From a virus: DNA of 29,618 bases. The notes under the pieces were generated by a model. It saw nothing but the letters and a program-made list of their open reading frames with translations, did not search any database and had not been told where the DNA came from. Below, one piece after another: positions 8,800 through 24,425 of this stretch; position 1 is the first letter of the stretch; every line of letters starts with the position of its first letter. Made by a program: the position numbers and the translations under genes. The stretch is taken from the IMG/VR virus record IMGVR_UViG_3300046167_000221, positions 1 to 29,618 of that record; one strand, 5' to 3'.

Positions 8800-9422
8800 T
8801 GAAAATAACAAACGAAGACAATATGAAACTGATGGCAAGGTATGAAGATAATTACTTTGACCTTGCTATTGTAGACCCACCTTATGGTATTGCAAGATTT
8901 GGTAATAGGGTCGAATTAAGTAACAGATTGTGTAAAAGTGCTAAACTAAACGAATGGGATATAAAACCATCTCCAGAATATTTCAAAGAACTATTTAGAG
9001 TATCTAAAAATTTAATTATCTGGGGTGCGAATAACTTTACATTGCCAGAAAGTGAGTATTTTTTAATATGGGATAAACACCAAACAGTTGATAATTTTGC
9101 AAGTGCTGAATATGCTTGGACTAACTGTAAAAAACCAGCAAAAGTTTTTAGATATTCTATACATAAAACAATGTCAGATAGGAAAGCAGAAGGGGGTAAG
9201 ATACACCCAACACAGAAACCAGTAAAACTTTACGAATGGCTTTTAATGAACTATGCAAAAGAAGGAGATAAAATATTAGATACTCATTTAGGCTCTGGAA
9301 GTATTGCTATTGCCTGCCATAATTTAAAGTTTGATTTAACCGCTTGTGAGTTAGATACAGAGTATTATAATGCAGCAATGAAAAGACTAAAAGAACATCA
9401 ACAACAATTAACAATTTTTTAA
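8799..9422 (+). CDS. DNA methyltransferase (N6-adenine/N4-cytosine type)
   Basis: This 207-residue protein has motif IV D26-P-P-Y29 near the N-terminus, H136-P-T-Q-K-P and then the AdoMet-binding D161-T-H-L-G-S-G-S168. The order DPPY before the Gly-rich motif indicates a beta-class amino-methyltransferase. The region between is short (about 130 residues), so the target-recognition part is minimal. The protein probably marks phage DNA against host restriction. No matching restriction enzyme is seen, so it is an orphan enzyme. Its TAA is followed 28 bases later by the next gene. Confidence 0.85.
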   Translation: MKITNEDNMKLMARYEDNYFDLAIVDPPYGIARFGNRVELSNRLCKSAKLNEWDIKPSPEYFKELFRVSKNLIIWGANNFTLPESEYFLIWDKHQTVDNFASAEYAWTNCKKPAKVFRYSIHKTMSDRKAEGGKIHPTQKPVKLYEWLLMNYAKEGDKILDTHLGSGSIAIACHNLKFDLTACELDTEYYNAAMKRLKEHQQQLTIF

Positions 9423-9437
9423 AATAATTAATAATTA

Positions 9438-9453
9438 ACTATATACATATATG
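9438..9453 (+). promoter_or_regulatory. ACTATATA start-proximal motif (copy 1)
   Basis: ACTATATACATATATG, with the A exactly 13 bases before the ATG at 9451. It is identical to copy 2 at 12378, including the preceding TTA. See the finding on this signal. Confidence 0.6.
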
Positions 9454-10644
9454 CAACTAATAAACATTCAAGAGGTTAGACCTAATGAAAACAATCCAAG
9501 ATTTATAAAGGATTACAAATTTAAGAAACTTGTAAAATCAATTAAGGAGTTCCCAGAGATGTTAAAGTTAAGACCTATCGTAGTGAATAGCGATATGGTT
9601 GTACTTGGTGGTAATATGCGTTTAAAAGCGTGTAAGGAAGCAGGATTAAAAGAAGTATGGGTTTTGAAAGCTGATGATTTAACAGAACAACAACAAAAAG
9701 AATTTATTGTAAAAGACAATGTAGGTTTTGGAGAATGGGATTGGGATGTATTAGGCAACGAATGGGATACACAACAGTTGGAAGATTGGGGTTTAGAGTT
9801 TATGCCATTTGAAGAAGAAGAAGTTTTAGAAGCTAAAGAAGATGATTTTGATGAAGCACCTCCAGAACAAGCTAAAACTGTTTTAGGAGATTTATATGAG
9901 ATAGGAGAGCATAGATTACTTTGTGGAGATAGTACAGATAGCGATACTGTTGAAAAGCTAATGAATGGAGAGAAAGCAGATATGGTTTTTACTGACCCTC
10001 CTTATGGTGTAAGTTATAGTGGTGGTCATAATAAAAAACAAAGAAAGGGTATTAAGAGTGATGAATTTGAAAATGATGAATTATCTAATTTATTTGAAGA
10101 TGCTATAAATAATGCTTGTATATTTTCAAAAGAAAGTTCTCCTTTTTATATTTGGTATGCAGACAGAAAATCAAAAGAAACTTATGCAGGATTATCTAAA
10201 ACACCTATCGAAGTTAGAGCAGTAATATCTTGGTATAAGGTTAAAAGTGGTTCTGGTGCATTTATGAGCCAATATATACCTAATTATGAACCTTGTATTT
10301 ATGGTTTTAAAAGTGGTAATACCATAAAATGGTACGGACCAACAAATGAAAAAACTGTTTGGGAATTTCCTAAAGATAAACAAAACGAATACCATTTAAC
10401 TCAAAAACCTATTTTAGTAGTAGAGAGGGCATTAAAAAACAGTAGTCAAAATAATGATTTAATCTTTGATTGTTTCCTGGGAGGTGGGTCAACAATGGTA
10501 GCATCACACCAATTAAAAAGAAAATGTTACGGTATGGAATTAGACCCAAAGTATTGTGATGTAATTATAAAAAGAATGATTAAATTAGACCCAACATTAA
10601 AAGTAAAAAGAAACGGAGTTATTTGTAATGACTTTGTAGAATAA
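9451..10644 (+). CDS. ParB/Srx-domain DNA methyltransferase fusion
   Basis: A 397-residue two-domain protein. Residues 1-120 are a ParB-like nuclease domain (RPNENNPRF, VVLGGNMRLKA at 51-61). Residues about 148-390 are an amino-methyltransferase with LLCGDSTD, T181-D-P-P-Y-G-V at 181-187, HLTQKP at 315-320, and D340-C-F-L-G-G-G-S and MELDPKYCD. This fusion is frequent in phages and mobile elements and methylates adenine, sometimes helping evade restriction. It carries the ACTATATA signal, unlike the other methyltransferase just upstream, so the two may be expressed at different times. The catalytic DPPY is intact. Confidence 0.88.
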   Translation: MQLINIQEVRPNENNPRFIKDYKFKKLVKSIKEFPEMLKLRPIVVNSDMVVLGGNMRLKACKEAGLKEVWVLKADDLTEQQQKEFIVKDNVGFGEWDWDVLGNEWDTQQLEDWGLEFMPFEEEEVLEAKEDDFDEAPPEQAKTVLGDLYEIGEHRLLCGDSTDSDTVEKLMNGEKADMVFTDPPYGVSYSGGHNKKQRKGIKSDEFENDELSNLFEDAINNACIFSKESSPFYIWYADRKSKETYAGLSKTPIEVRAVISWYKVKSGSGAFMSQYIPNYEPCIYGFKSGNTIKWYGPTNEKTVWEFPKDKQNEYHLTQKPILVVERALKNSSQNNDLIFDCFLGGGSTMVASHQLKRKCYGMELDPKYCDVIIKRMIKLDPTLKVKRNGVICNDFVE

Positions 10645-10678
10645 AATTAATTTAAAAACTAAAACGTTCTTTATTTAA

Positions 10679-10704
10679 TATAAGTATAGTTCAAAGTACT
10701 TATA
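10679..10704 (+). repeat. Perfect inverted repeat A upstream of terminase
   Basis: TATAAGTA (10679-10686) and TACTTATA (10697-10704), 8 bp perfect, 10-base spacer. It is not followed by a T tract, so it is not itself a standard terminator. With repeat B it forms two tandem hairpins just before the terminase small-subunit gene. Confidence 0.6.
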
Positions 10705-10709
10705 AATCC

Positions 10710-10737
10710 AAAACAAAGTTTGTTAGTTCTTTGTTTT
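10710..10737 (+). terminator. Inverted repeat B, A+T-rich terminator or terminase-proximal element
   Basis: AAAACAAAG (10710-10718) / CTTTGTTTT (10729-10737), 9 bp perfect, 10-base loop, then ATTTTAAT. It could terminate the methyltransferase transcript. It also overlaps a TTG at 10731 that would extend the terminase small subunit by 7 residues, which argues against that upstream start. Confidence 0.55.
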
Positions 10738-10751
10738 ATTTTAATAAAATT

Positions 10752-11117
10752 ATGAAAGAAAACCAAAACAGAACAGAACACCATAAAAAAGCAATTATAG
10801 AAGCGTTAGAAAAATCTTTAGGAGTTGTTACAACTGCTTGTAAAATAGTAGGAGTAGGAAGAACAACATTTTATCAATGGTTAAAAGATGATGAAGTATT
10901 TGCAAGGCAAGTAAAAGATATTGAAAACATTGCTTTAGATTTTGTAGAAAGTAAACTGTTTGAGAATATAAGAGATGGTAAAACATCTGAAACGATATTC
11001 TATTTAAAGACAAAAGGAAAGAATAGAGGATATGTAGAAAGACAAGAGATAACTGGAGCAGATGGTATGCCTTCTAAATTTGAAATAGAAATAATAAAGC
11101 GTGAAGATAAAAACTAA
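10752..11117 (+). CDS. terS: Terminase small subunit
   Basis: A 121-residue protein with an N-terminal helix-turn-helix (ALEKSLGVVTTACKIVGVGR then TTFYQWLKDDEVF) and a helical oligomerisation region. It ends ENIRDGKTSETIFYLKTKGK and a basic tail, the usual layout of phage terminase small subunits of this HTH type. It recognises the packaging start on phage DNA and hands it to the large subunit. I use the ATG at 10752 rather than the in-frame TTG at 10731, because the TTG lies in a hairpin. The last 17 bases overlap the large-subunit start. Confidence 0.8.
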   Translation: MKENQNRTEHHKKAIIEALEKSLGVVTTACKIVGVGRTTFYQWLKDDEVFARQVKDIENIALDFVESKLFENIRDGKTSETIFYLKTKGKNRGYVERQEITGADGMPSKFEIEIIKREDKN

Positions 11118-12255
11118 TGTTGTTTTTGAACATCTTTTAGAATCAGATAAGAAGATTACAATAGAGCAAGGTGGAACAAGAAGCGGTAAAACCTACAACG
11201 TTCTTTTGTATATTATTTTTAAATACTGTTTAGAGAATACTGGTAAGACTGTAACGATATGTCGGAAAACATTTCCTGCGGTTCGTAGTTCTGTTATGCG
11301 TGATTTTTTAGATATACTAAAATTATATAATTCTTATTCAGAAGTAAATCATAATAAATCTAATCACGAATATAAGTTAAACGGAAACCTAATAGAGTTT
11401 ATATCTTTAGACCAACCACAAAAAGTAAGAGGTAGGAAAAGAAACTTACTATTTATAAATGAAGCAAACGAATTAGATTATGAAGATTGGCAACAGTTAA
11501 TTTTCAGAACAGAAGATAAAATAATTCTTGACTTTAATCCATCAGATGAATACCATTGGATTTATGACAAGGTAATACCAAGAGAAGATGCCGATTTTTA
11601 TATTACTACTTATCTGGATAATAGCTTCCTTAATAAAAGCATTACAGAAGAAATAGAACGTTTAAAAGAAACAGATGAAACCTATTGGCAAATATATGGA
11701 TTAGGTTTAAAGGGTGTATCTAAAGCTACTATATTTAATTACACAGAAGTAAACCATATACCACACGATGCGGAGTTTATAAGTTACGGAGCAGATGCAG
11801 GATATAGTAATGACCCTACAACATTAGTTTCTGTTTATAAGAAAGAACACAACCTATATATAAAAGAACACATATACCAAACACAGATGACTACTTATGA
11901 CATCAGTAGGAAATGGAAAGACATAGGTATTGAAAGAGAATTGATTTACTTTGATAGTGCTGAACCAAGATTGATTGAGGAGTTAAGAAGAATGGGTTTT
12001 AACGTAAGACCAAGTTTAAAAGGTGCAGATAGTATCAACGCAGGTATAGACCTCTTAAAACGCTTTAAAATACATATAGAGAAAGATAGCACTAATGCAA
12101 TACAAGAGTTTAGAAATTATAAATGGCAAGAGGACAGAAGTGGTAAGATGATAAATAAACCAGTTCCAAAAAACGACCATATTATTGATGCGGTCAGATA
12201 CGCTACTTATTCTGTTTTAAGCAAACCTAACTTTGGTAAATACGCTATTCAATAA
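11101..12255 (+). CDS. terL: Terminase large subunit (Terminase_3 type)
   Basis: This 384-residue protein has ATPase Walker A G24-G-T-R-S-G-K-T31, R55-K as coupling residues, and Walker B LLFINEAN at 116-123. It then has the RNase H-like nuclease with G230-A-D-A-G-Y-S-N-D, the second acidic residue D285 (YFDSAEP), and N358-D-H-I-I-D-A-V-R. All catalytic residues are present. It cuts and packages phage DNA into the prohead. The start is a GTG at 11101 inside the small-subunit gene, and the sequence MKIKTNVVFEHLLES looks like a natural N-terminus for this family. The short length is normal for it. Confidence 0.93.
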   Translation: MKIKTNVVFEHLLESDKKITIEQGGTRSGKTYNVLLYIIFKYCLENTGKTVTICRKTFPAVRSSVMRDFLDILKLYNSYSEVNHNKSNHEYKLNGNLIEFISLDQPQKVRGRKRNLLFINEANELDYEDWQQLIFRTEDKIILDFNPSDEYHWIYDKVIPREDADFYITTYLDNSFLNKSITEEIERLKETDETYWQIYGLGLKGVSKATIFNYTEVNHIPHDAEFISYGADAGYSNDPTTLVSVYKKEHNLYIKEHIYQTQMTTYDISRKWKDIGIERELIYFDSAEPRLIEELRRMGFNVRPSLKGADSINAGIDLLKRFKIHIEKDSTNAIQEFRNYKWQEDRSGKMINKPVPKNDHIIDAVRYATYSVLSKPNFGKYAIQ

Positions 12256-12258
12256 ATA

Positions 12259-12321
12259 ATGAAAAAAGTATTAATAGAAATAAAGAAAATAGCGAAGGCA
12301 ATTCATTCAATAAAAAAATAA
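12259..12321 (+). CDS. Tiny basic peptide ORF
   Basis: A 20-residue ORF, MKKVLIEIKKIAKAIHSIKK, beginning 3 bases after the terminase stop and ending at the foot of a terminator. The regular i/i+3/i+4 spacing of I/V/L against K gives an amphipathic basic helix. It could be a real micro-protein or only a stretch of A-rich DNA. There is no independent support. Confidence 0.35.
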   Translation: MKKVLIEIKKIAKAIHSIKK

Positions 12322-12348
12322 CCTTTACAGAAATGCAAGGGTTTTTTT
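12320..12348 (+). terminator. Intrinsic terminator after terminase
   Basis: Stem AACCTTT (12320-12326) / AAGGGTT (12337-12343), one G:T pair, 10-base loop, then a run of T to 12348. It separates the terminase genes from the tail genes, so a new promoter is needed before 12391 unless there is readthrough. Confidence 0.8.
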
Positions 12349-12377
12349 GTACCTTGTAATAAAATATTTAAAAATTA

Positions 12378-12393
12378 ACTATATACATATATG
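12378..12393 (+). promoter_or_regulatory. ACTATATA start-proximal motif (copy 2)
   Basis: ACTATATACATATATG, exactly 13 bases from motif start to the ATG at 12391. It follows a terminator by 30 bases. Confidence 0.65.
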
Positions 12394-13035
12394 AAAGTTG
12401 AATTAATAGTACCGAATAGTTTAAACGAGGTTACACTTGGACAATATCAAGAGTACATAAAATTAAAGGATTTATCAGAGGTTGAAATGTCTTTAAAGAT
12501 GATTGAGATATTCTGCAACTTAAATTCTGAACAAGTAAGATATTTAAAAGCTACTGATGTAAGTGCAGTAATAAGCATTATATCTGAAATGTTTGATAGT
12601 AAACCTGGATTGATAAATACGTTTAAAATAGAAGGTATTGAATACGGATTTATTCCTAACCTTGATGAAATGAGTTTCGGAGAATATATAGATTTAGATA
12701 CTTATATAGGAGATTGGGATAACATCGAGAAAGCTATGGGAGTTCTTTATAGACCAGTAGAGATGCGAAAGGGTAATAGATACCATATAAAAGAATACGA
12801 AGCAGGAGATACAGAGCATTTAAAAGCTATGCCACTAGATGCCGTATTGGGTTCTATACTTTTTTTTTATCGTTTAGGGAACGACTTGTGCGAAATTACG
12901 ATGAACTCTTTGGGGGATACGGAGAAGGAGGCCTTACAAGCGCTGCTCAATTCGGAAAAAAATGGGGTTGGTACTCAAGTATTTATGCACTCGCTAAACA
13001 AGATATTCGAAGATTTGAAAATATCACTAAATTAA
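12391..13035 (+). CDS. Tail assembly chaperone, short (G-like) form
   Basis: A 214-residue protein of a type I know as the first of the frameshift pair in Bacteroidota siphophages: N-terminal VTLGQYQEYIK, EYIDLDTYI, MGVLYRPV, then MPLDAVLGSILFFYRLGND and an acidic end. It lies upstream of the tape measure, and a downstream ORF overlaps it in the -1 frame (12888-13118). That is the layout of lambda G/GT, where the short form and a slipped fusion chaperone the tape measure protein. Codons after 12880 are unusually G/C-ending for this genome, suggesting the -1 frame is also under selection. Confidence 0.75.
   Translation: MKVELIVPNSLNEVTLGQYQEYIKLKDLSEVEMSLKMIEIFCNLNSEQVRYLKATDVSAVISIISEMFDSKPGLINTFKIEGIEYGFIPNLDEMSFGEYIDLDTYIGDWDNIEKAMGVLYRPVEMRKGNRYHIKEYEAGDTEHLKAMPLDAVLGSILFFYRLGNDLCEITMNSLGDTEKEALQALLNSEKNGVGTQVFMHSLNKIFEDLKISLN
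12860..12868 (+). promoter_or_regulatory. T9 slippery site for -1 frameshift (candidate 1)
   Basis: Nine T residues. In the 0 frame the heptamer T_TTT_TTT sits at 12861-12867, the canonical X_XXY_YYZ phase. Slipping here continues into the 12888-13118 frame for a fusion of about 242 residues. Confidence 0.6.
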
Positions 13036-13118
13036 AGATGCACGAATGTTTGATGTTCTTGACATTTGAAAAAGAGAAAAACGAATTAGAAGCAAAACAA
13101 ATAAAAAAGAAATTTTAG
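12888..13118 (+). CDS. Tail assembly chaperone, frameshift extension (T-like)
   Basis: A 76-codon frame opening with GTG at 12888 but probably made only as a -1 fusion to the 12391 gene. It contains AAQFGKKWGWYSSIYALAKQ, then RFENITKLKMHECLMFLTFE and a basic end LEAKQIKKKF. In flavobacterial phages I recall the same K-W-G-W-Y-x-S-I-Y-x-L-A block directly after the chaperone gene. Neither an independent start signal nor an ACTATATA motif is present, which favours frameshifting. It ends 1 base before the next ATG. Confidence 0.7.
   Translation: MRNYDELFGGYGEGGLTSAAQFGKKWGWYSSIYALAKQDIRRFENITKLKMHECLMFLTFEKEKNELEAKQIKKKF
12956..12962 (+). promoter_or_regulatory. A7 slippery site for -1 frameshift (candidate 2)
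   Basis: A run of seven A; with the next T the heptamer A_AAA_AAT is in the 0-frame phase at 12957-12963. A slip here joins SEKK to WGWYSS and keeps most of the short form, much as in lambda where the slip is near the end of G. Confidence 0.5.
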
Positions 13119-13586
13119 ATGCAAGGGATTAGAGGATTTTACCAACTTACTGAAACTATAAAAGACCAATTACTGAATGATGTAAATGTCAATACAGTAA
13201 CTACTGGAGATATAACAGAAATAGATTTATCTAAACAAACTATATTTCCCTTGTCGCATATTATTGTAAACAATGTAATTACAGAAGAGCAGTATTTATC
13301 TTTTAACATTACAGTTATGGCAATGGACATTGTAGATGAAAGCAAAGAACCATCAGCAGATATATTTAGAGGTAATGATAATGAACAAGATGTATTAAAT
13401 ACTCAATTAGCAGTATTAAATAGATTGACAATGATATTGCGTAAAGGTACTTTACATTCTGATTTATATCAATTAGATGGTACACCGAATTGCGAACCAT
13501 TTTATGAAAGGTTTGAAAACAAGTTAGCAGGTTGGGCGTGTACCTTTGATGTATTTATACAAAACGATATTAACATATGCAGTTAA
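13119..13586 (+). CDS. Head-tail joining / tail completion protein candidate
   Basis: A 155-residue protein starting directly after the chaperone extension. It begins MQGIRGFYQLTETIKDQLL and contains TTGDITEIDLSKQTIFPLSH, with strands LSFNITVMAMDIVDES. This is the pattern I associate with Bacteroidota phage tail-terminator or neck proteins. Its size and its place before an HK97-gp10-like protein support a role at the head-tail joint. It overlaps the next gene by 10 bases. The function is an inference. Confidence 0.6.
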   Translation: MQGIRGFYQLTETIKDQLLNDVNVNTVTTGDITEIDLSKQTIFPLSHIIVNNVITEEQYLSFNITVMAMDIVDESKEPSADIFRGNDNEQDVLNTQLAVLNRLTMILRKGTLHSDLYQLDGTPNCEPFYERFENKLAGWACTFDVFIQNDINICS

Positions 13587-14101
13587 AAGAAACACAGAAG
13601 GCTCTAAATACTTTTGCTAAATATGTAATACAACAGAGTAGAACTAATTTAACCAAAGGTACTAAACCTTATGGCTCTAAAAATAGTAGTAAGAAATTAT
13701 ACAACAGTTTAGATTCTGATGTAAAGGTTTCTAAAAATAGTTTTCAATTAAGTTTTTTAATGGAGGAATATGGTGTGTTTCAAGACAAGGGTGTAAGTGG
13801 TAAAGAAAAGAAATACAATACACCTTTTAAATATACGAATAAGAAACCTCCTGCAAGTGCATTTAGCCAATGGGTTATAAGAAAAGGATTAAAAGGAACA
13901 AGAGATAAAAAAGGTAGGTTTGTAAGTAGAAAGGGTTTACAGTTTGCAATAGCTAATACTGTATTTAGAAAAGGAATTAAACCAAGTTTATTCTTTACTA
14001 AACCATTTGAGAAAGCATTTAAGAATCTACCAAAAGAGTTAGTAGAATCATTCGCTTTAGATGTAGAGCAATTAATAAAAACAACAGTAAACAATAAATA
14101 A
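13577..14101 (+). CDS. HK97 gp10-like neck / tail component
   Basis: A 174-residue, strongly basic protein (many K in residues 20-45 and 95-140) with an N-terminal helix and the segment FLMEEYGVFQDKGVSGKEKK. This recalls the E-x-G-x-x-x-x-F/G pattern of HK97-gp10-type minor tail proteins. A C-terminal helix (KPFEKAFKNLPKELVESFA) is also typical. Probably a tail-completion or neck component. Its stop overlaps the next start as TAATG. Confidence 0.6.
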   Translation: MQLKETQKALNTFAKYVIQQSRTNLTKGTKPYGSKNSSKKLYNSLDSDVKVSKNSFQLSFLMEEYGVFQDKGVSGKEKKYNTPFKYTNKKPPASAFSQWVIRKGLKGTRDKKGRFVSRKGLQFAIANTVFRKGIKPSLFFTKPFEKAFKNLPKELVESFALDVEQLIKTTVNNK

Positions 14102-15615
14102 TGGCAAACGTATTATTAAGGAGTCCCTATTATATTTCTGAAGATATTGGTTCAGATTTATCAGCTAAAATAGAAATCACAATAGATGGCACTTTAGCTT
14201 ATACAATAGTAAAAAACAAACCTGCAAATAATAATGATTTTGTACTGTTTGAGATTTCAGAACTTGTAAGAGATTATATAGATATTAAATACAACGGAAG
14301 TATAACTGCATCTGATTTAAATGTAAATGTAAGTTATGTATTGTACAAATATACTCTTTCAAATGCAAGTGGAACAGAAACCAATTTAGGCACTACAACT
14401 TTTTTTGGTATTGATGGATATGGTTATTTTGAAGAAGGTTCTAACTTAAATATTACTAAAGGGTATATGCAATCAAATGATATTATATACACTTTGTACG
14501 GAGAAGATTTAAGATTGCCAGTAGATAGAAACAATACAACATCTGTTACATATTTATACAAAGGTTCACAAACATTTACAAAAGCAATTACATCAAGCAG
14601 TACAGAAGTATTTGAATACATTGATGCAACTGATAGTTTTAAAGAAAGAGTAATTGAAGATAGTGGAACGTATGAAGAAAGTAGTTGTTTAGATTCTTTC
14701 CTACAAAACAATGATTTGTATTTAGTTGATAAAGTAGTTTTAGAAACTGAAGGTGCTGAATTAATACCAAGTATAGATATATCAAGTAGCAGTTGGTTTA
14801 CTGGTGGAGATGCAGTTATAACAGATGGAATAACTTCTCCATCCGGAGATACAGATGCTTATAAATTGACTTCGAGTAGTGGTAACGGACATATATTTAC
14901 AACTGGAATTCAAGGAACAGATGGAGAAAAGGTTACTATTTCAGTTTGGTTAAAAGGAGATGTAGATGCGAGATTTAGACTTCAAGAGTTAGGAGGAGAT
15001 TATACAAACTACTTTCAAGAAAATATAACACTTACAACAACTTGGACTCAATATGAAGTTTCTGGGATTAAAGCAAGAGATGGAAACCCTGCTAGAATGG
15101 TAATAGATATAAATCCAGATATTGCTGGATATATAGATATTTACTTACCTTCAGTAAGATTACCAGAAACTAAAATAGTAGATGTAATTACTTTAAACGA
15201 ATGTAAATACGAACCAATAAAATTAACTTTTGTAAATCGTTTTGGTGCGTTACAAGATTTATGGTTCTTTAAAAAATCAATAGAAAAAGTAAACACTAAA
15301 AAAGAAACGTTTAACAGATTTACTATCAATTCACAAACTGGTGTTTATGATACTTCAATACACCAAAATCAAACCTTTAATGTAAACTCAAGTAAAAAGC
15401 TAACTATCAATACTGGATACGTAGATGAAAGTTACAATGATTTAATGCAGGAGTTAATGCAGTCTGAACAAATTTGGTTAGAACTAAATTCTGTTGTTAC
15501 ACCTATAAATTTAGATACAAATAGTTTGACATTTAAAACAAGTGTAAATGATAGGTTAGTAGATTATACAGTAGATGTTTCTTATTCTTTTGATGCTATA
15601 AATAACATTCGATAA
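14101..15615 (+). CDS. Large minor tail protein with inserted carbohydrate-binding-like domain
   Basis: A 504-residue protein. The body (1-176 and 358-504) is beta-rich, with LNECKYEPIKLTFVNRFGA near the rejoining point, a segment typical of Bacteroidota phage tail proteins. Two insertions seem to interrupt it. The first is a module at residues 180-206 (FKERVIEDSGTYEESSCLDS) shared with two other virion proteins here. The second is a jelly-roll, CBM-like domain at about 218-357, starting GAELIPS and containing KVTISVWLKGDVDARFRLQ and TTTWTQYEVSGI. The insert may bind host surface glycans. It lies between neck and baseplate-type genes. The domain limits are estimates. Confidence 0.7.
   Translation: MANVLLRSPYYISEDIGSDLSAKIEITIDGTLAYTIVKNKPANNNDFVLFEISELVRDYIDIKYNGSITASDLNVNVSYVLYKYTLSNASGTETNLGTTTFFGIDGYGYFEEGSNLNITKGYMQSNDIIYTLYGEDLRLPVDRNNTTSVTYLYKGSQTFTKAITSSSTEVFEYIDATDSFKERVIEDSGTYEESSCLDSFLQNNDLYLVDKVVLETEGAELIPSIDISSSSWFTGGDAVITDGITSPSGDTDAYKLTSSSGNGHIFTTGIQGTDGEKVTISVWLKGDVDARFRLQELGGDYTNYFQENITLTTTWTQYEVSGIKARDGNPARMVIDINPDIAGYIDIYLPSVRLPETKIVDVITLNECKYEPIKLTFVNRFGALQDLWFFKKSIEKVNTKKETFNRFTINSQTGVYDTSIHQNQTFNVNSSKKLTINTGYVDESYNDLMQELMQSEQIWLELNSVVTPINLDTNSLTFKTSVNDRLVDYTVDVSYSFDAINNIR
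14638..14718 (+). repeat. RV-GT-E-C module, copy in the 504-residue tail protein
   Basis: Encodes FKERVIEDSGTYEESSCLDS then FLQNNDL (residues 180-206). It aligns with copies at 23354 and 27405 as F-x-x-R-V-I/L-x-x-x-G-x-x-E-x-x-x-C. Confidence 0.65.
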
Positions 15616-17679
15616 ATGCAGAAGATACAATTATATATTGAAGGGCAAAGGTTAGATACTTTTACAGATGAAAGTGTTGTAATAACGCAATCAATAAAGA
15701 ACGTAAAAGACATTGATAAAGTATTTACGGACTTTACAAAAACGTTTAGTTTACCAGCAAGTAAAACAAATAATAAAATATTTAAGCATTATTACAATTT
15801 TGATATTGTTGGGGGTTTTGATGCAAGGATTAGAAAACCTGGAAATATAGAATTAAACAATACACCATTTACAGAGGGGTTAATAAAACTTGAAGGAGTT
15901 GATTTAAAGGATAATAAACCACATACATATAAGATTACATTCTTTGGGAATACTGTTACCTTAAAAGATATTTTAGGAGATGATAAACTATCTGGTTTAA
16001 ATAGTTTAACAAGTTTAAATCAAACCTATGATGCTACAAGTGTAAAAGATTCTTTACAAGATGACCCAACTACAAATGACATTATTGTACCATTAATTAC
16101 GCACACACAAAGATTAAGTTTTGATTCTCATAGTTCAGCAAATGACCCTGGGAATATAGCTTATGACCAAGGACATCCTCACGGAGTTTTATATACAGAT
16201 TTAAAATACGCAATTCGTTTACATTCTATTATTGAAGCAATAGAAGATAAATACCCTACACTTTCTTTTAGCAATGATTTCTTTGTAAATACAAATGCAC
16301 CTTATTATAATCTTTTTATGTGGTTGCATAGAAAGAAAGGAAGTGTTTTAGAAGAGGGTGCTTTAAGTCAAAGACTATTGACTGGTTTTTCTGATGATTC
16401 AGATAGTGGTACTTTTTCAACAATGTTAAACAATGCTTTATCATTATCTTATGTACCAGAACCGAATCAAATTGCACCTCCAAGTTTTACAATAATTAAA
16501 GTTAAAACAACTACACTTGCAACAGTTCTTCATAGAATATCAATAAGAAAAAACGGTATTGAAGTTGCTAATAGTGGAGATATTACAACATCTGGAATTA
16601 CTGAAACAATCGTGCCTTTAGATAAAACCGAAGAAAATTCACTATATACAGTTTATATTGAAGGTAATCAAAATTTAATTTTTTCAAGTATTGATTTTGA
16701 AGTTCTTTACTATGAATATTTTGGGAATGTATCAAAAACTAAAACGTATACTATTTCAAATTATACTTATATACCGACTGATGAATTTGATATTACGCAA
16801 CAAATACCAGATATAAAATTAATTGATTTTTTAAGTGGGTTATTTAAAATGTTTAATCTTACTGCATTTGTTGAAAGAAATCAAACAGAAGTAACAGTTA
16901 AAACTTTAGATAGTTTTTATTCTAATCCTTCTGATGATTCTCCTTATGATATAACTAAATATGTAGATGTTAGTAAAAGTCAAGTAAATGTAGCTTTACC
17001 ATATCGTAAAATTAACTTTAAACACGAGGATACAAAAACATTTTTAGCTGCAAAACACACTCAACTATTTGGAGAAACTTGGGGAGAATCACAATATGAT
17101 AGTGGGCAAAAATTAGATGGTAGTATCTACAATGTAAAGACACCATTTTCTCAAATGAAATATGAAAGATTTGTAGATGAAAATACTTCTGGAGTAGGTA
17201 CAACTAGTGTTCAATGGGGTTGGTTTGTAGATGACAATCAAGAATCTTATATAGGAAAACCTTTGTTGTTTTATCCAATAAGAATAACAAGCGGAAATCA
17301 AATTGCTTTTCTGAATAACATTAATAGCCAAACACCTTTAACAACATACAACATTCCTTCAAATAGTGTTGCTTTATCATCTGCTACAAGTTCTTATAAT
17401 ATGAATTTTAACGCAGAGCAAAATGAATGGGGTGCTTTAGATGGAGATACTGGTTTTACTAATTCATTATTTGAAGCATATCACAAAAACTATATAACAA
17501 GTATATTCCAAGAATCAAATAGGATTACAAAAGTTACTGCTTATTTGCCATTGAGAATATTAAGAAATTACACTTTAGCAGATAGGTTTATAATAAACGG
17601 AAAGAGTTATAAAATAAACTCAATAAAAACTAATTTAAAAAATGGTAAATCTGATTTAGAATTACTTAACGATTTATGA
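15616..17679 (+). CDS. Large tail / baseplate-type structural protein
   Basis: A 687-residue protein directly after the previous tail gene. Its N-terminus (MQKIQLYIEGQRLDTFTDES, then FTDFTKTFSLPASKTNNKIF) is the hallmark of a large structural protein I know from Bacteroidota siphophages, placed near the tape measure. It is probably a distal tail or hub protein. The body is beta-rich, with YTISNYTYIPTDEFDITQQI and a C-terminal RFIINGKSYKINSIKTNLKN. No lytic or fibre motif is visible. It ends in an ATGA overlap with a small ORF. Confidence 0.75.
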   Translation: MQKIQLYIEGQRLDTFTDESVVITQSIKNVKDIDKVFTDFTKTFSLPASKTNNKIFKHYYNFDIVGGFDARIRKPGNIELNNTPFTEGLIKLEGVDLKDNKPHTYKITFFGNTVTLKDILGDDKLSGLNSLTSLNQTYDATSVKDSLQDDPTTNDIIVPLITHTQRLSFDSHSSANDPGNIAYDQGHPHGVLYTDLKYAIRLHSIIEAIEDKYPTLSFSNDFFVNTNAPYYNLFMWLHRKKGSVLEEGALSQRLLTGFSDDSDSGTFSTMLNNALSLSYVPEPNQIAPPSFTIIKVKTTTLATVLHRISIRKNGIEVANSGDITTSGITETIVPLDKTEENSLYTVYIEGNQNLIFSSIDFEVLYYEYFGNVSKTKTYTISNYTYIPTDEFDITQQIPDIKLIDFLSGLFKMFNLTAFVERNQTEVTVKTLDSFYSNPSDDSPYDITKYVDVSKSQVNVALPYRKINFKHEDTKTFLAAKHTQLFGETWGESQYDSGQKLDGSIYNVKTPFSQMKYERFVDENTSGVGTTSVQWGWFVDDNQESYIGKPLLFYPIRITSGNQIAFLNNINSQTPLTTYNIPSNSVALSSATSSYNMNFNAEQNEWGALDGDTGFTNSLFEAYHKNYITSIFQESNRITKVTAYLPLRILRNYTLADRFIINGKSYKINSIKTNLKNGKSDLELLNDL

Positions 17680-17822
17680 TAGAAAATATTTTAGAATTAT
17701 TAAAACACGCAAACGGAGAAACAGAAAATATACGTATTGCACAAGGTAAGAATAAACTACCTATTAGTTTAAAAGATGGATATAAGGCACTTAAACAACA
17801 AATAAAATGGCAGAAAAAGTAA
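17676..17822 (+). CDS. Small protein between tail hub and tape measure
   Basis: A 48-residue ORF. It starts with an ATGA overlap and runs 16 bases into the tape-measure gene. It is mainly helical and basic (MIENILELLKHANGETENIR onward, ending KQQIKWQKK). The tight overlap on both sides suggests it is translated. It may be a small assembly factor; not recognised. Confidence 0.55.
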   Translation: MIENILELLKHANGETENIRIAQGKNKLPISLKDGYKALKQQIKWQKK

Positions 17823-19651
17823 TAATTGATTTAGAAGTAAAATCTAATAAAGGAGTTAAGAATGTAGAAAAGCTAAACACCGAAATATCTAAAACAAACA
17901 AGGAGGTTAAAAAGACAAATGATGAACTTTCTGGTGCAACAAATACTTTAGATAAATTTACTGGCGGAGCAGTTAGTAAGATTAAAAACTTTGGTAGTTC
18001 AATAAAAGGTTTAACAAATGGTTTCAAGTCTTTAAAGGTTGCAATTATTGGTACTGGTATTGGTGCATTACTTATTGCTTTAGTTTCTTTAAGAGCAGCG
18101 TTTACAAGTTCAGAAGAGGGACAAAATAAGTTTGCTAAATTGATGGGTATTATTGGTTCTGTAACTGGTAACCTTGTTGATATGTTAGCTAATTTAGGAG
18201 AGGGAATAATAAACGCTTTTACTAATCCTAAACAAGCATTAATAGATTTTAAAAACTTAATTGTAGAAAATATTACAAATAGGTTTAACGCTATTATTGA
18301 CACTCTTGGATTTTTAGGTAGTGCATTTAAAAAGGTATTTAGTGGAGATTTCAAAGGTGCATTAGAAGATGCAAAATCAGCAGGAAGTTCTTATGTAGAT
18401 TCTTTGACTGGTGTTAAAAACAGTATTAATAAAGTAACTGAAGCGACTAAAGGATTTGTAAAAGAATTAAAAGAAGAAGCGAAAATAGCAGGTCAAATAG
18501 CAGACCAGAGAGCAATCGCAGATAAATTAGAAAGAGGTCTAATAGTAGAACGAGCAGAAGCAGATAGAAAGGTTGCAGAATTAAGAGAAAAAGCAGCAGA
18601 TAAAGATAAGGTTTCAGCAAAGGATAGAATTGCAGCACTAGAACAAGCAGGTAGGATATCTGAAGAAATAACAAACAAAGAAATAGCAGCAGCTAAATTA
18701 AGATTTGACGCAAAAGTAAAAGAAAATTCTTTGTCAAAATCAACAAAAGAAGATTTAGATGAAGAGGCTAATTTAAAAGCAAGATTAATACAATTAGAAA
18801 CTGCAAGGTTAAGGCAACAAAAATCTATCACTGCTGAAATAAGTGGAGCAAGAAAACAAGAGAAAGCAGAACTAGATGCAGAAGCAAAAGAAAAACAAGA
18901 TAAAATAGATAAAGATGCTAATGATGAAAAAACAAGATTAGATGCTATTCAAAAAGTAAGAGATGACTTTAAAGAAAAACAAAAAGAAAAAGAAGCTGAA
19001 ACAGAATTAGAAAAAATTGATTTAGAAGAACAAAAAAAGATTGAAGAGTTAGATAAATTAAAAGCAACAGAACAACAGAAACAAGAAGTTTACGATTATT
19101 ATGCAGGGTTAAGAGGGGACTTAACTAAAAAGGAAAATGATAAAAAAAGAAAATTAGAAGAATTAGCTAAAAAACAAACTCTATCAGATGCAAAAAGTTC
19201 TTTTGACCAGATAGCAAATTTAGCAGGTAAAGATAGTAAGATAGGGAAAGCTATGGCAATAGCAAGTGCAACTATTAGCGGTGTAGAGGGTGTTCAAAAT
19301 GCTTATTCTACTGCACAGAAATCTCCTATTACCGCATTGTTTCCAGGTTATCCAATCGTTCAAGCAGGTTTAGCTGGAGCAGTTGCATTGAAAAATATAT
19401 CTGCAATAAAAAGCGTAAAAGAATCTGGTGGTGGTGGTACTATGCCTTCACCACCTTCAACACCTCCAACACCTTCTGTTCCTTCTTTACCTCCATCATT
19501 TAATGTTGTAGGTGCAAGTGATACAAACCAATTAGCTTCAGCAATAGGTGGACAATCACAACAACCAGTACAAGCATTTGTTGTATCGAATGATGTTAGT
19601 ACTGCACAAGAATTAGATAGAAATATTATCGAGGGTGCATCTATTGGATAA
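17807..19651 (+). CDS. Tape measure protein
   Basis: A 614-residue protein with an N-terminal T/K-rich helical region, a hydrophobic Gly-rich segment at about 77-98 (SLKVAIIGTGIGALLIALVS), and a long charged coiled coil at about 215-455. A second hydrophobic patch lies at about 490-530 and a proline-rich stretch near 545-560. This is the standard shape of a siphophage tape measure, which sets tail length and may insert in the membrane at infection. By the usual 1.5 angstrom per residue, the tail would be about 90 nm. No lytic domain is seen. Confidence 0.88.
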   Translation: MAEKVIIDLEVKSNKGVKNVEKLNTEISKTNKEVKKTNDELSGATNTLDKFTGGAVSKIKNFGSSIKGLTNGFKSLKVAIIGTGIGALLIALVSLRAAFTSSEEGQNKFAKLMGIIGSVTGNLVDMLANLGEGIINAFTNPKQALIDFKNLIVENITNRFNAIIDTLGFLGSAFKKVFSGDFKGALEDAKSAGSSYVDSLTGVKNSINKVTEATKGFVKELKEEAKIAGQIADQRAIADKLERGLIVERAEADRKVAELREKAADKDKVSAKDRIAALEQAGRISEEITNKEIAAAKLRFDAKVKENSLSKSTKEDLDEEANLKARLIQLETARLRQQKSITAEISGARKQEKAELDAEAKEKQDKIDKDANDEKTRLDAIQKVRDDFKEKQKEKEAETELEKIDLEEQKKIEELDKLKATEQQKQEVYDYYAGLRGDLTKKENDKKRKLEELAKKQTLSDAKSSFDQIANLAGKDSKIGKAMAIASATISGVEGVQNAYSTAQKSPITALFPGYPIVQAGLAGAVALKNISAIKSVKESGGGGTMPSPPSTPPTPSVPSLPPSFNVVGASDTNQLASAIGGQSQQPVQAFVVSNDVSTAQELDRNIIEGASIG

Positions 19652-19673
19652 AAGACAAAATAAAAAAAATATA

Positions 19674-19689
19674 ACTATATACAAATATG
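19674..19689 (+). promoter_or_regulatory. ACTATATA start-proximal motif (copy 3)
   Basis: ACTATATACAAATATG, 13 bases from motif start to the ATG at 19687, in the 35-base gap after the tape measure gene. No terminator is visible in front. Confidence 0.6.
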
Positions 19690-20643
19690 AATATAATTGA
19701 GTTAATATTAGACGAGGAAAATAATGAAATAGGGATTGAAGCAATTAGTGTTGTAGAAAATCCTGCTATTGAAGAAGATTTTATTGCCTTAAATAGTAAC
19801 ATTATAGAATTAGCAGAAGCAGATAAAGAAAAGAAACTACTTGTTGGTGCTTTATTAATACCAAACAAACCAATTTACAGAAAGAGCGGAGAAGAAGAAT
19901 ACTACATTTATTTTTCAAAAGATACTGTAAGAAAAGCGTCTCAAATGTATTTGATGAATGGAAATCAAAGCAATGCAACTTTAGAACACGAACACGATAT
20001 AAACGGATTAACACTTGTTGAAAGTTGGATAGTTGAAGATGAGGTACACGACAAGACCAGAAAGTACGGAATGAATGTTCCAGTAGGTAGTTGGGTTGGT
20101 TCTGTAAAAGTAAATAATGATGAGGTTTGGAATGATTATGTAAAGAGTGGAAAGGTAAAAGGGTTTTCTATTGAAGGATATTTTGCTGACAGAATGGAAA
20201 GACCTAAAGAACCAATAAACGACTTACAAGAAGAATTAAGTAAAATAGAAGAAGCAGAAGCAGAGTTTATGTTATCTCAAATAAAGGCAGTTATCAAAAA
20301 TGATAAACGACTTAAAAAAGGTAAGAGGACAGAAATGGAGAGTTTTTCTGACTATCCACAATCTGTAAGTAACAATGCTAAAAGAGGTATTGAATTAAAT
20401 AAGAAAGTAAATAATAAATGCGCAACACAAGTAGGTAAAGTAAGAGCGCAACAATTAGCAGACAGAAAGCCAATAAGTATGGAAACAATTAAACGTATGT
20501 TTTCATATTTAAGTAGAGCAGAGGAATATTATAAAACTGGAGATACAGAGGCGTGTGGATATATATCTTATTTATTATGGGGTGGTAAATCTGCAAAGAC
20601 TTGGGCAGAATCTAAAATAAAACAAGATGAGAAAAAAAAATAA
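19687..20643 (+). CDS. Prohead protease, XkdF-like (Peptidase_S78_2) with C-terminal domain
   Basis: A 318-residue protein. Residues about 15-175 match the XkdF-like phage serine protease: ENPAIEEDF, LLVGALLIPNKPIYR, A97-T-L-E-H101-E-H103, TLVESWIVED, VPVGSWVGSVKVNND, and VKGFSIEGYF with S161 and E163. H and S are the likely catalytic pair. A second domain (about 215-318) begins SFSDYPQSVSNNAKRGIELN and ends YLLWGGKSAKTWAESK, an add-on I have met in Bacteroidota phages. The protease would mature the prohead, processing scaffold and capsid encoded next. Confidence 0.8.
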   Translation: MNIIELILDEENNEIGIEAISVVENPAIEEDFIALNSNIIELAEADKEKKLLVGALLIPNKPIYRKSGEEEYYIYFSKDTVRKASQMYLMNGNQSNATLEHEHDINGLTLVESWIVEDEVHDKTRKYGMNVPVGSWVGSVKVNNDEVWNDYVKSGKVKGFSIEGYFADRMERPKEPINDLQEELSKIEEAEAEFMLSQIKAVIKNDKRLKKGKRTEMESFSDYPQSVSNNAKRGIELNKKVNNKCATQVGKVRAQQLADRKPISMETIKRMFSYLSRAEEYYKTGDTEACGYISYLLWGGKSAKTWAESKIKQDEKKK

Positions 20644-20776
20644 TTCAACTCCAAGCAGTACAAGTCCAAGAGCAAGTAAAAGAGGTTGTTTATGTAAGAA
20701 CAATACATACTCTAAAAAGTGTTGTGATGGTAGCTTACAAGCGCAAGGAATAGGCAAAACCTCAACGACAGTATAA
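20627..20776 (+). CDS. Small cysteine-rich protein (RGCLC...CCDGS)
   Basis: A 49-residue ORF overlapping the protease end by 17 bases. The N-terminal half is S/T/P/K-rich; the C-terminal part is KRGCLCKNNTYSKKCCDGSL followed by QAQGIG. Four cysteines (C-x-C and C-C) suggest a metal or disulfide knot. I recall very similar CC-D-G-S-x-x-A-Q-G-I-G endings on small proteins and on tails of virion proteins in Bacteroidota phages. A role in the head is plausible from position between protease and scaffold. Confidence 0.65.
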   Translation: MRKKNNSTPSSTSPRASKRGCLCKNNTYSKKCCDGSLQAQGIGKTSTTV

Positions 20777-20803
20777 ACGAAAATACAAATTAATTTTTTT
20801 AAT

Positions 20804-20819
20804 ACTATATATTTATATG
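20804..20819 (+). promoter_or_regulatory. ACTATATA start-proximal motif (copy 4)
   Basis: ACTATATATTTATATG, 13 bases to the ATG at 20817. Confidence 0.6.
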
Positions 20820-21455
20820 AAACCAAGTGAAATGTTAAATCAAGTAAAAACTCTTTTAGGAGTTGAAGTAAAACTTGAACAAATGAAATTAGAAAACGGA
20901 ACTGTTTTAGAAGCAGATAAATTTGAGGGTGGTAATGAAATCTTTATCGTAACAGAAGATGAAAGAGTTGCTTTACCAGTTGGAGAATACGTTTTAGAAG
21001 ATGGTCAAACTTTAGTAATCGAAGAGGAGGGTATTATCAAAGAGATAAAATCTGAAGGCGAAGATGCTAAAGAAGAAGAAGTAGAGGAAGAGGTTGTTGT
21101 AGAAGCAGAAGAAGAAGAAAAAGAAGAAATGTCTTATGCTACTAAAGAAGAACTTGCAGAGGTTAAATCAATGGTTGAGGAAATCAAAGCAATGTTAGAA
21201 CCTAAAGAAGAAATGAGCGAAGAACCAAAAGAGGAATTAAAAGAGGAAGTTGAACTTTCTGAAGTTGCTCAAGAGGTTGTAAGCGAAGCAGTAAATGAAA
21301 TTCCAGAAGAGGTAAAACAAGAGTTATCTGAACCTGCTGCTGAACCAATTAACACAAACGCAGAAGTTTCTAAAACACAAGTAAAATTCAATATAGCATC
21401 TAAAAGAAAGATGTCTACATTGGATAGAGTAATGAGTAAAATAAACAAACTTTAA
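20817..21455 (+). CDS. Scaffold-like acidic head protein
   Basis: A 212-residue protein. The N-terminal part (1-80) is a small beta domain (GTVLEADKFEGGNEIFIVTE, EYVLEDGQTLVIEEEG). The middle (about 85-165) is extremely Glu-rich and helical (VEEEVVVEAEEEEKEE), and the C-terminus is basic (KFNIASKRKMSTLDRVMSKI). An acidic coiled coil with a basic capsid-binding tail, directly before the major capsid gene, is the usual profile of a scaffold. It is probably cut by the protease at 19687. Confidence 0.75.
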   Translation: MKPSEMLNQVKTLLGVEVKLEQMKLENGTVLEADKFEGGNEIFIVTEDERVALPVGEYVLEDGQTLVIEEEGIIKEIKSEGEDAKEEEVEEEVVVEAEEEEKEEMSYATKEELAEVKSMVEEIKAMLEPKEEMSEEPKEELKEEVELSEVAQEVVSEAVNEIPEEVKQELSEPAAEPINTNAEVSKTQVKFNIASKRKMSTLDRVMSKINKL

Positions 21456-21476
21456 TAACAAATAAATTAAATAAAA

Positions 21477-22401
21477 ATGAGTGTATCTTTAACAAACCCA
21501 ACTTATAGCTGGAGAATTTAGTGGTAAGTACATCGCTGCTGCATTATTGTCTGCATCAACTTTAGATAGTGGTGCAATTTCAATTCTGCCAAACGTAAAG
21601 TTTAAATCTGTTATCCAAAAAGGAGCAACTGATGACATCGTAAAAGATGCATCTTGCGACTTTGTAACTAATCAAGGAACTTTAACTTTATCAGAAGCAA
21701 TTTTACAACCAGATGAGTTTCAAGTAAATTTAGAATTATGTAAGAAAGACCTTCACGCATCTTGGGAAGCTGAACAAATGGGTTATTCTGCTCACGATAA
21801 TTTAGCACCTTCATTTGCTGAATTTGTAATTGCTCACGTATCTGCTAAAGTAGCTGACAAAACAGAAAAAAATATCTGGTCTGGTGCAACTGCAAACAGT
21901 GGAGAATTTGATGGATTTACTGCAAAATTAACTGCTGACACTGATGTAATTGATGTTGCTGCTGCAACTGTAACTTCTGCAAACGTAGTTGAAGAATTAG
22001 GTAAAGTAGTAGATGCTATTCCAACGGCAGTTTACGGACAAGAAGATTTAACATTATATGTTTCTTCAAACGTAGCAAGAGCATACGTAAGAGCATTAGG
22101 AGGTTTCGCTTCTGGTATTGGTGCAAATGGTTCTGATAACAAAGGAACTCAATGGTATAACGGAGGTGAGTTATCTTTTGATGGTATCAACATCTTTGTA
22201 GCTAAAGGATTAGGAGATAACACTATTGTTGCTGCACAAAAATCAAACTTATATTTCGGAACTGGTATCTTAAATGACCAAAACGAAGTAAAAGTAATTG
22301 ATATGAGCGACATCGATGGTTCTCAAAATGTAAGAGTAATAATGAGATTTACCGCAGGTGTACAACACGTATTCGGTGGAGATATCGTTCTTTATTCATA
22401 G
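21477..22401 (+). CDS. Major capsid protein, with an apparent frame break after codon 10
   Basis: The ATG at 21477 reads MSVSLTNPTY and then runs into a TAG at 21519-21521. Skipping one base at about 21507 (the A after TAT) gives AGEFSGKYIAAALLSASTLD and an open frame to 22401, 307 residues in all. The best in-frame start without the shift is a TTG at 21547, which would lose the conserved N-terminus. The rest (NVKFKSVIQKGATDDIV, ELCKKDLHASWEAEQMGY, ending VFGGDIVLYS) fits the Bacteroidota phage capsid family by recall. It is followed by a strong terminator. The frame break may be a sequence error. Confidence 0.75.
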
Positions 22402-22425
22402 TAAATTAATTAATAATCATTAAAG

Positions 22426-22451
22426 AGGGTGGGTTCTGCCTACCCTTTTTT
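22426..22451 (+). terminator. Intrinsic terminator after capsid
   Basis: Eight-pair stem AGGGTGGG (22426-22433) / CCTACCCT (22439-22446; one G:T pair) with a 5-base loop, then six T residues. Very strong, as expected behind the most expressed gene. Confidence 0.9.
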
Positions 22452-22458
22452 ATTTAAA

Positions 22459-22474
22459 ACAATATAAATATATG
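22459..22474 (+). promoter_or_regulatory. ACTATATA-like motif (copy 5, variant)
   Basis: ACAATATAAATATATG, 13 bases to the ATG at 22472. It lies only 8 bases after the terminator T tract, so a promoter here would have its upstream part inside the hairpin. Confidence 0.45.
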
Positions 22475-23005
22475 GCTTGTTCATTAACAACTGGGCGTAA
22501 AGTACCTTGTAAATCAGCAGTAGGTGGTATAAAAGCTATCTACTTTACAGATTATGGAACTTTAGGAACGCCTACAATAGTAGCAGGAGAGATTACGGAT
22601 TTCCCACAAGGCACTCCAGATTGGTTTAAATTTGATGTAAAAGGTGCATCATCTTTAGAAACTGCAATAAATTCATCAAGAGAAAACGGAACTACTTTTT
22701 ACGAAAGTACCTTGACAATGGCTTTAACTTTTCAAGACAAAGCTACTCAAGAAGAATTAAAATTAATAGCACACGCAAGACCTCACGTAGCTATCGAAGA
22801 CTACAACGGAAATTATTTTGTTGTAGGTTTAGAACACGGTGCAGAGGTAACTGGTGGTACAATTTCAACTGGTGCAGCAATGGGAGATTTAAGTGGATAC
22901 AATTTAACGATTGTAGCACAAGAAACTGCTCCTCCTTATTTTATTACTGGTTCAGTAATTGTAGGTGATACATCTGGAGTTCAGATTGACCCAACACCTG
23001 CATAA
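22472..23005 (+). CDS. Major tail tube protein
   Basis: A 177-residue protein beginning MACSLTTGRKVPCKSAVGGI and containing WFKFDVKGASSLETAINSSR, ENGTTFYESTLTMALTF, ELKLIAHARPHVAIEDYNGN and GAEVTGGTISTGAAMGDLSG. This pattern is characteristic of the tail tube protein of Bacteroidota siphophages as I know it. It polymerises around the tape measure. It is encoded between capsid and portal, away from the other tail genes, and is isolated by terminators on both sides, as expected for a high-level single gene. Confidence 0.75.
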   Translation: MACSLTTGRKVPCKSAVGGIKAIYFTDYGTLGTPTIVAGEITDFPQGTPDWFKFDVKGASSLETAINSSRENGTTFYESTLTMALTFQDKATQEELKLIAHARPHVAIEDYNGNYFVVGLEHGAEVTGGTISTGAAMGDLSGYNLTIVAQETAPPYFITGSVIVGDTSGVQIDPTPA

Positions 23006-23024
23006 TTAAATTTAACTTTATATT

Positions 23025-23055
23025 AAAGGGGTATCTTAACGGATACCCTTTTTTT
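23025..23055 (+). terminator. Intrinsic terminator after tail tube
   Basis: Stem GGGTATC (23029-23035) / GATACCC (23042-23048), extended by A:T and one G:T pair at the base, 6-base loop, then a T run. Strong. Confidence 0.9.
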
Positions 23056-23060
23056 ATCTT

Positions 23061-23078
23061 AAAAGCTATGCTTTTTTA
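23061..23078 (+). terminator. Second small hairpin in tandem
   Basis: AAAAGC (23061-23066) / GCTTTT (23070-23075), 3-base loop, followed by TTATT. A weak back-up terminator directly behind the strong one. Confidence 0.5.
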
Positions 23079-23106
23079 TTAATACACACAAAAAATAGTA
23101 TTTATT

Positions 23107-23122
23107 ACTATATACTAATATG
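23107..23122 (+). promoter_or_regulatory. ACTATATA start-proximal motif (copy 6)
   Basis: ACTATATACTAATATG, 13 bases to the ATG at 23120, following two terminators. Confidence 0.65.
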
Positions 23123-23582: not shown

Positions 23583-24425
23583 ATGAATGATTTAAGAGTA
23601 TTAAATTTATCGACTTATACAAGTCCTAAAATAAAGGAAACAAAGACAGATAATTTTGTTTCTTATGGAGAGGACAACAATTACTTTCAGTTTTTAATTG
23701 ATAGGTATAATGGTAGTGCAACAAATAACGCTATTATAAACGGAATGTCAGAGATGATATTCGGTAGAGGTTTAGATGCAACAGATAGCAATAGAAAGCC
23801 AGAAGCGTATGCACAAATGATAACATTATTTCACGATGATTGTGTAAGGAGATTATCTTCTGATTTAAAACTTATGGGTCAATGTGCAATGCAAGTAATC
23901 TATTCTAAAGACAGAAAAACGATTGCAAGAGTAGAACACATACCAGTACAAACATTACGAGCAGAGAAGTGTAATGAGAAAGGAGAGATAGAAGCGTACT
24001 ATATGCACCCAGATTGGGCAAACTATAAAAAGAACGATACTTTACAAAGAATAGAAGCGTTTGGTTATGGTAAAGAAGCAATACAGATATATTACGTAAA
24101 ACCTTATAAGGCAGGATATAAATATTATTCTCCAGTAGATTATCAAGGTGGTTTACAATATGCAGAGTTAGAAGAAGAAATATCTAACTATCATATTAAT
24201 AACATTATGAACGGATTAGCACCAAGTATGTTAATCAATTTCAATAATGGAACTCCAGACCCAGAGCAAAGACAATTAATAGAAAACAGAATCTATCAAA
24301 AGTTTAGTGGTAGTTCTAATAGTGGTAAATTTATTTTATCATTTAACGATGATGCAAATACTGCTGCGAGTATAGAACCAATACAATTAAGTGATGCACA
24401 TAACCAATATCAATTTCCTTTCTGA
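23583..24425 (+). CDS. Portal protein, N-terminal fragment
   Basis: A 280-residue ORF starting MNDLRVLNLSTYTSPKIKET, with YGEDNNYFQFLIDRYNGSAT, MSEMIFGRGLDA, IARVEHIPVQTLRAEK and INNIMNGLAPSMLINFNNGT, a portal core of the HK97/SPP1 broad type. The portal is the dodecameric ring through which DNA is packaged. It starts 1 base after the preceding stop. The natural sequence ends at about QYQF (24416); the last residues PF and TGA are a product of the frame break at 24417. Confidence 0.75.
   Translation: MNDLRVLNLSTYTSPKIKETKTDNFVSYGEDNNYFQFLIDRYNGSATNNAIINGMSEMIFGRGLDATDSNRKPEAYAQMITLFHDDCVRRLSSDLKLMGQCAMQVIYSKDRKTIARVEHIPVQTLRAEKCNEKGEIEAYYMHPDWANYKKNDTLQRIEAFGYGKEAIQIYYVKPYKAGYKYYSPVDYQGGLQYAELEEEISNYHINNIMNGLAPSMLINFNNGTPDPEQRQLIENRIYQKFSGSSNSGKFILSFNDDANTAASIEPIQLSDAHNQYQFPF

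Follow-up and report, generated by a model that had tools for sequence, protein, structure and literature searches.

Candidate sigma-dependent late promoters that would give leaderless mRNAs in a phage of marine flavobacteria

Five genes of a marine flavobacterial phage are preceded by a two-part element which, with a probability of about 0.8 on comparative sequence grounds, is a late promoter depending on a phage ECF-like sigma factor and giving leaderless mRNAs. The DNA analysed, hereafter the window, is the whole virus record IMGVR_UViG_3300046167_000221 (29.6 kb; 29,618 nt). It is a phage of marine flavobacteria with many uncultured marine relatives, and its gene order is that of a tailed phage, running from early replication genes to methyltransferase, terminase, tail, protease, capsid and portal genes. 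In the proposed mechanism, the ACTATATA copies would be the -10 part of two-part late promoters read by host RNA polymerase carrying the phage sigma factor (4309-4806). The start codon would coincide with the point where transcription starts, probably to within 2 nt, and the late transcripts would begin at the AUG or a few bases away and be translated as leaderless mRNAs. Sequence comparison supports this reading by the two-part element, its fixed spacing, its place at late operon heads, its concerted variation and its co-occurrence with the sigma gene.

The original prediction had described six strings located 13 nt before an ATG. All six are present at those places and five of them form the promoter set, in which ACTATATA occupies -13 to -6 of the ATG at 9451, 12391, 19687, 20817 and 23120. 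The copies at 9451 and 12391, said to be identical over 19 bases, share at least 20. The sites, with the look-alike that was set aside, are the following.

9418-9453, + strand: candidate late promoter of the ParB/methyltransferase gene (ATG 9451); TAAAA 9420-9424, ACTATATA 9438-9445, predicted +1 at the A of ATG 9451, model score 22.4.
12358-12393, + strand: candidate late promoter of gene 12391; TAAAA 12360-12364, ACTATATA 12378-12385, predicted +1 at 12391, model score 22.7.
19654-19689, + strand: candidate late promoter of the protease gene (Peptidase_S78_2, Pfam); CAAAA 19656-19660, ACTATATA 19674-19681, predicted +1 at 19687, model score 24.2.
20784-20819, + strand: candidate late promoter of gene 20817, with the capsid gene (start 21477) downstream; CAAAT 20786-20790, ACTATATA 20804-20811, predicted +1 at 20817, model score 21.9.
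23087-23122, + strand: candidate late promoter of gene 23120, with the portal gene downstream and an intrinsic terminator before it; CAAAA 23089-23093, ACTATATA 23107-23114, predicted +1 at 23120, model score 20.1.
22459-22466, + strand: look-alike before 22472, outside the set; ACAATATA, without a -31 box, below the model threshold and not conserved.

The bare 8-mer is not enriched in the window (12 matches on both strands versus 8.4 expected). At exactly -13, it was found before 6 of 43 gene ATGs versus none of the 593 other ATGs of the + strand (binomial P ~1e-14), and a prior-free search of the window gave CTATAT at -12 as the fixed-offset hexamer of highest significance, with 5 copies versus 0.025 expected. 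For none of the five promoter genes could an alternative in-frame start be detected upstream. The 22472 copy was rejected as a sixth member: besides lacking the -31 box, it carries A at -11 where the family has T or G, it was missed by the promoter model, and only 4 of 45 relatives conserve it. Its homologues display instead a hairpin and a T-run followed by varied A-rich sequence, and since they are devoid of the element the copy is regarded as a chance look-alike.

Three window proteins (the terminase, the sigma-like protein and the product of gene 22472) served as queries against IMG/VR, and the relatives so collected comprise about 240 loci and 20 longer records; these relatives are often fragments and mutually non-independent, so that a site count does not equal a number of events. 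The element lies exactly at -13 before the homologues of the five genes. It reads ACWATATA at that position in 21 of 31 homologues of gene 9451 and, with up to two mismatches, is present in 44 of 53 homologues of gene 12391, 36 of 37 of the protease gene, 29 of 34 of gene 20817 and 35 of 37 of gene 23120. Essentially none was found upstream of early or internal genes of the relatives. The motif search in related phages that had been proposed as a check therefore recovers the same five gene families, and the stated absence of the motif ahead of early genes is borne out both in the window and in the relatives. The element is thus shared by late operon heads and missing from early genes, lateness being judged from gene content.

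The 8-mer takes lineage-dependent forms, ACTATATA, GCTATATA, NTTATATA, ACGTTATA and ACGATATA. A consensus was derived from 114 sites dereplicated at 75% identity. They had been selected by 8-mer class and presence of the ATG, and neither the -31 box nor T(-1) entered the selection. It consists of CAAAA or TAAAA at -31 to -27, a 14-nt A+T spacer nearly devoid of G and C, YKWTATA at -12 to -6, and a T at -1 immediately followed by the ATG. Single positions are also conserved, A(-3) in 82% and T(-1) in 99% of the sites, and A never occurs at -12. The original prediction had overlooked both the -31 box and the conservation of T(-1)/A(+1). YKWTATA at -12 to -6 is in agreement with the -10-like element expected about 10-12 bp before the start codon of leaderless genes. 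It does not fit the Bacteroidota sigma-A element (TAnnTTTG at about -12 to -5), copies of which sit in early intergenic regions of the window, e.g. at 1524 and 6124.

A promoter model restricted to -33 to -6, with the ATG left out and each genome's own sites removed from the training, was run on 21 genomes with mechanical gene calls. The coding strand yielded 76 matches, as against 2 for the opposite strand and 4 when the model was reversed; almost all were intergenic. Sites were found at 68 of 370 genes with an upstream gap versus 8 of 560 tightly packed genes. Of the 61 dereplicated sites followed by a start codon, 36 have A(+1) as the first base of the ATG, and most of the remaining ones have short leaders. 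In several relatives the whole block is shifted upstream, giving predicted leaders of 1-47 nt, a few of the longest being doubtful. These leadered sites keep the same internal spacing, and T(-1)/purine(+1), neither of which is in the model, was found in 23 of 25 dereplicated ones. This conservation away from the start codon points to a promoter rather than to a fixed-distance translation signal, and to +1 as the initiation point.

The start could nevertheless lie 2-3 nt further upstream and leave a tiny leader, since A(-3) is conserved as well, and some relatives have predicted leaders of 1-4 nt. Real promoters with leaders of a few nucleotides, i.e. near-leaderless mRNAs, are unlikely as a general description of the sites: the T(-1)/purine(+1) pair of the leadered sites marks +1 as the start, and the spacing is consistent with the mapped phage-sigma promoters of phiEco32 and 7-11, which start 6-8 and 6-9 bp from the element, respectively (PMC8948821). 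In the window sites, the A of the ATG lies 6 bp beyond it.

The candidate reader of the promoters is encoded by the following gene.

4309-4806, + strand: gene of an ECF-like sigma factor of 165 aa (domains sigma2 and sigma4), proposed to read the promoters.

The window protein alone gave no sigma match against Pfam, and a sequence-profile search of solved structures retrieved no sigma factor; fold comparison alone found one. At the level of the family, 16 of 20 members match Pfam Sigma70_r2 (best E 1e-4) and 12 of 20 match the PHROG sigma-factor family. In the AlphaFold2 model (mean pLDDT 80), the best structural matches are sigma factors, mostly of the ECF type: residues 1-81 resemble sigma2 (5uxx_C, 2.6 A over 76 residues) and residues 100-165 resemble sigma4 (2h27_A, 2.3 A over 66), the relative placing of the domains being unreliable at the low overall pTM of 0.46. 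By profile matches and fold, the phage thus encodes a sigma-family protein, and its small size with sigma2 and sigma4 is that of the ECF type. The two folds agree with a two-box promoter. The gene is present in 18 of 20 longer records, in one of them with a broken frame; the two records without it are among the shorter ones, and the region may be missing from them.

The -12 to -10 triplet varies in a concerted manner, being alike in 116 of 129 pairs within genomes versus 34% between genomes, and on the sigma tree it requires no more than the minimum number of changes. It also tracks the trees of four structural genes, and because all these trees agree almost fully, the comparison of sigma history with gene history does not discriminate. 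The covariation with sigma is therefore not independent of common descent and supports, rather than proves, recognition. One contig (L094/L175) was considered as a mixed-type recombinant, which could have told the history of the sigma apart from that of the genes, and rejected, as it carries a single type and an A+T-rich chance match.

A similar design was found in the cultured Nonlabens phage P12024S, whose late-gene homologues display about 32-35% identity. With the window sigma as query, tblastn gave no matches among phage records, and the homologous sigma of P12024S, gp33, was reached via gene order, annotation and profile (profile E ~1e-12; Pfam Sigma70_r2 above the cut-off). In this phage, CGTTAATA or CGTTACTA (CGTTA(A/C)TA) lies exactly 12 nt upstream of 6 of 45 CDS starts, the expectation for CGTTA at that offset being 0.04, and the sites mostly have AAAACAAA around -34 to -27. 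Just two of its promoter genes correspond to those of the window, 179 (protease, shared PHROG) and 3031 (gene order), suggesting that the design was kept while promoters move between genes. In the flavobacterial phages 11b (L284), P12002S (L285) and 1/32 (L286), neither a sigma homologue, searched for with the same profile, nor such a promoter signal could be detected. These three phages carry an A-rich signal at -14 to -10 of their start codons, resembling the host translation-initiation signal.

It seems improbable that the promoters, if real, are read by a host sigma, e.g. a host ECF sigma, instead of the phage protein. Shared ancestry could indeed account for the covariation with the phage sigma, but the sigma gene is present in most of the longer records and in P12024S, the motif is missing from the three sigma-less phages, and the triplet differs between sigma clades while being uniform within genomes.

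That the motif is a translation-initiation enhancer in ordinarily leadered mRNAs, replacing Shine-Dalgarno pairing for ribosomes which ignore it, was the other reading offered at the outset and is now very unlikely. The fixed distance to the ATG would suit it, and A at -3, -6 and -13 favours translation in F. johnsoniae (PMC6847099), matching parts of the motif. A(-12) also favours translation in that host (PMC6847099), yet it is never seen in the 114 sites. A second box at -31, the preference for genes with an upstream gap and the displacement of the block from the ATG in some relatives argue against an enhancer as well, and it is the different, A-rich signal of the sigma-less phages that appears to be the true one for translation. 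Random matches within A+T-rich intergenic sequence would explain the lack of over-representation of the bare 8-mer and account for the 22472 copy, but they are already excluded for the five sites by position statistics and conservation. The promoter reading of the original prediction, with a sigma-like factor and leaderless or near-leaderless mRNAs, gained strong comparative support from the two-part structure with fixed internal spacing at operon heads, the block shifts with leaders in which T(-1)/purine(+1) is kept, the variation that tracks the sigma clade and the similar cultured relative.

Terminators had been reported upstream of three of the six copies and are real, those at 22427 and 23025 being strong and the one at about 12320 weaker; terminator-like hairpins therefore precede two of the five promoter sites (~12320 and 23025).

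23025-23056, + strand: strong intrinsic terminator upstream of the 23120 promoter.
12320-12349, + strand: terminator-like hairpin of lesser strength before the 12391 promoter, fold z -1.8.

A hairpin and T-run like that before 12391 is present in many relatives. The capsid gene is separated from gene 22472 by a strong hairpin with a T-run (22424-22452), which every listed relative retains and after which no recognisable promoter was found; it is possibly a partial terminator or an RNA-processing site setting the ratio of the two products. A small stem-loop, both arms of which change together, often with a T-run, directly follows the late promoter of a terminase-region gene in relatives where the leader measures 22-48 nt. 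It is possibly a 5' hairpin, an attenuator or a protein site, and was located as follows.

Leader stem-loops in loci: L281 2934 (- strand), L209 7705, L186 8894, L219 6267.
Leader stem-loops in longer records: G004 20163, G010 10331, G015 8754, G017 7258, G020 2901.

Other features of the window were noted. Two inverted repeats, TATAAGTA...TACTTATA and AACAAAG...CTTTGTT, occupy 10678-10745 in the gap before the small-terminase-like gene 10752. The 170-aa protein encoded at 7932-8444 resembles DnaA in the C-terminal, DNA-binding domain alone (Bac_DnaA_C), the ATPase part being missing. The capsid frame looks frameshifted at 21477-21550, where ATG 21477 meets a stop and the frame resumes before 21547, and the portal frame is split at 24385-24425 (23583-24425 and 24391-24996), the corresponding frame of relative L094 (2855-4646) being undivided. 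Both frameshifts are probably assembly errors of the window record.

Bacteroidota ribosomes have to select start codons in the absence of Shine-Dalgarno pairing, and phage genes expected to be leaderless, in cells with few such mRNAs, are a natural test of how these ribosomes handle a 5'-terminal AUG. P12024S, cultured and with the same design, makes this testable now. The element also gives a sequence rule for locating late operons and true gene starts in common uncultured marine phages, and yields sigma/promoter pairs which diverged together. Leaderless mRNAs represent 5.5% in F. psychrophilum (PMC9723704), leaders exceed 10 nt in 87% of the predicted transcripts of F. johnsoniae (PMC6847099) and about 3.7% of leaders are shorter than 10 nt in B. 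thetaiotaomicron (PMC7366714). Leaderless mRNAs being a minority in flavobacteria, the late ones of the phage might not be translated efficiently. We tentatively raise the idea, which is rather doubtful, of an early/late switch in translation too, from leadered early mRNAs made at host-type promoters to leaderless late mRNAs belonging to a phage-sigma regulon, perhaps via a change of ribosome or initiation factor favouring the 5'-terminal AUG.

The arrangement is unusual because the hosts rarely make leaderless mRNAs, and in the open literature, subscription journals being outside the coverage, no report of promoters of this kind in Bacteroidota phages was found. The closest systems are those of phages 7-11 (gp47) and phiEco32 (gp36), in which a phage sigma serves late operon heads with a start a few bp past a -10-like element, the 7-11 promoter being also two-part (GTAAtg-16-aCTA). 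They differ by their enterobacterial hosts and box sequences, and a start codon on the start point is not described in the portion of PMC8948821 used here. Thermus phage phiYS40 likewise has mostly leaderless middle and late transcripts, but in a host phylum rich in leaderless genes (PMC3594737). In the TA-led leaderless genes of bacteria, the start codon likewise has a -10-like element about 12 bp before it; they are host genes with a TANNNT box like the sigma-70 -10 (PMC3160421), whereas the genes of the window are those of a phage and have a second box at -31 and a -10 box specific to the lineage. The late promoters of T4 resemble the window sites by an 8-bp TATA-like element one helical turn upstream and a phage sigma-family protein, gp55. 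That element is single and gp55 is sigma70-like in domain 2 only (PMC2988020), in contrast with the -31 box and sigma4 fold found here. The promoters of the ECF-type SM6 of F. psychrophilum belong to a host regulon that includes type IX secretion genes, and are untied to the start codon (PMC9723704). Late promoters read by a phage sigma and leaderless phage mRNAs are thus each known, and their combination in Bacteroidota phages seems to be new.
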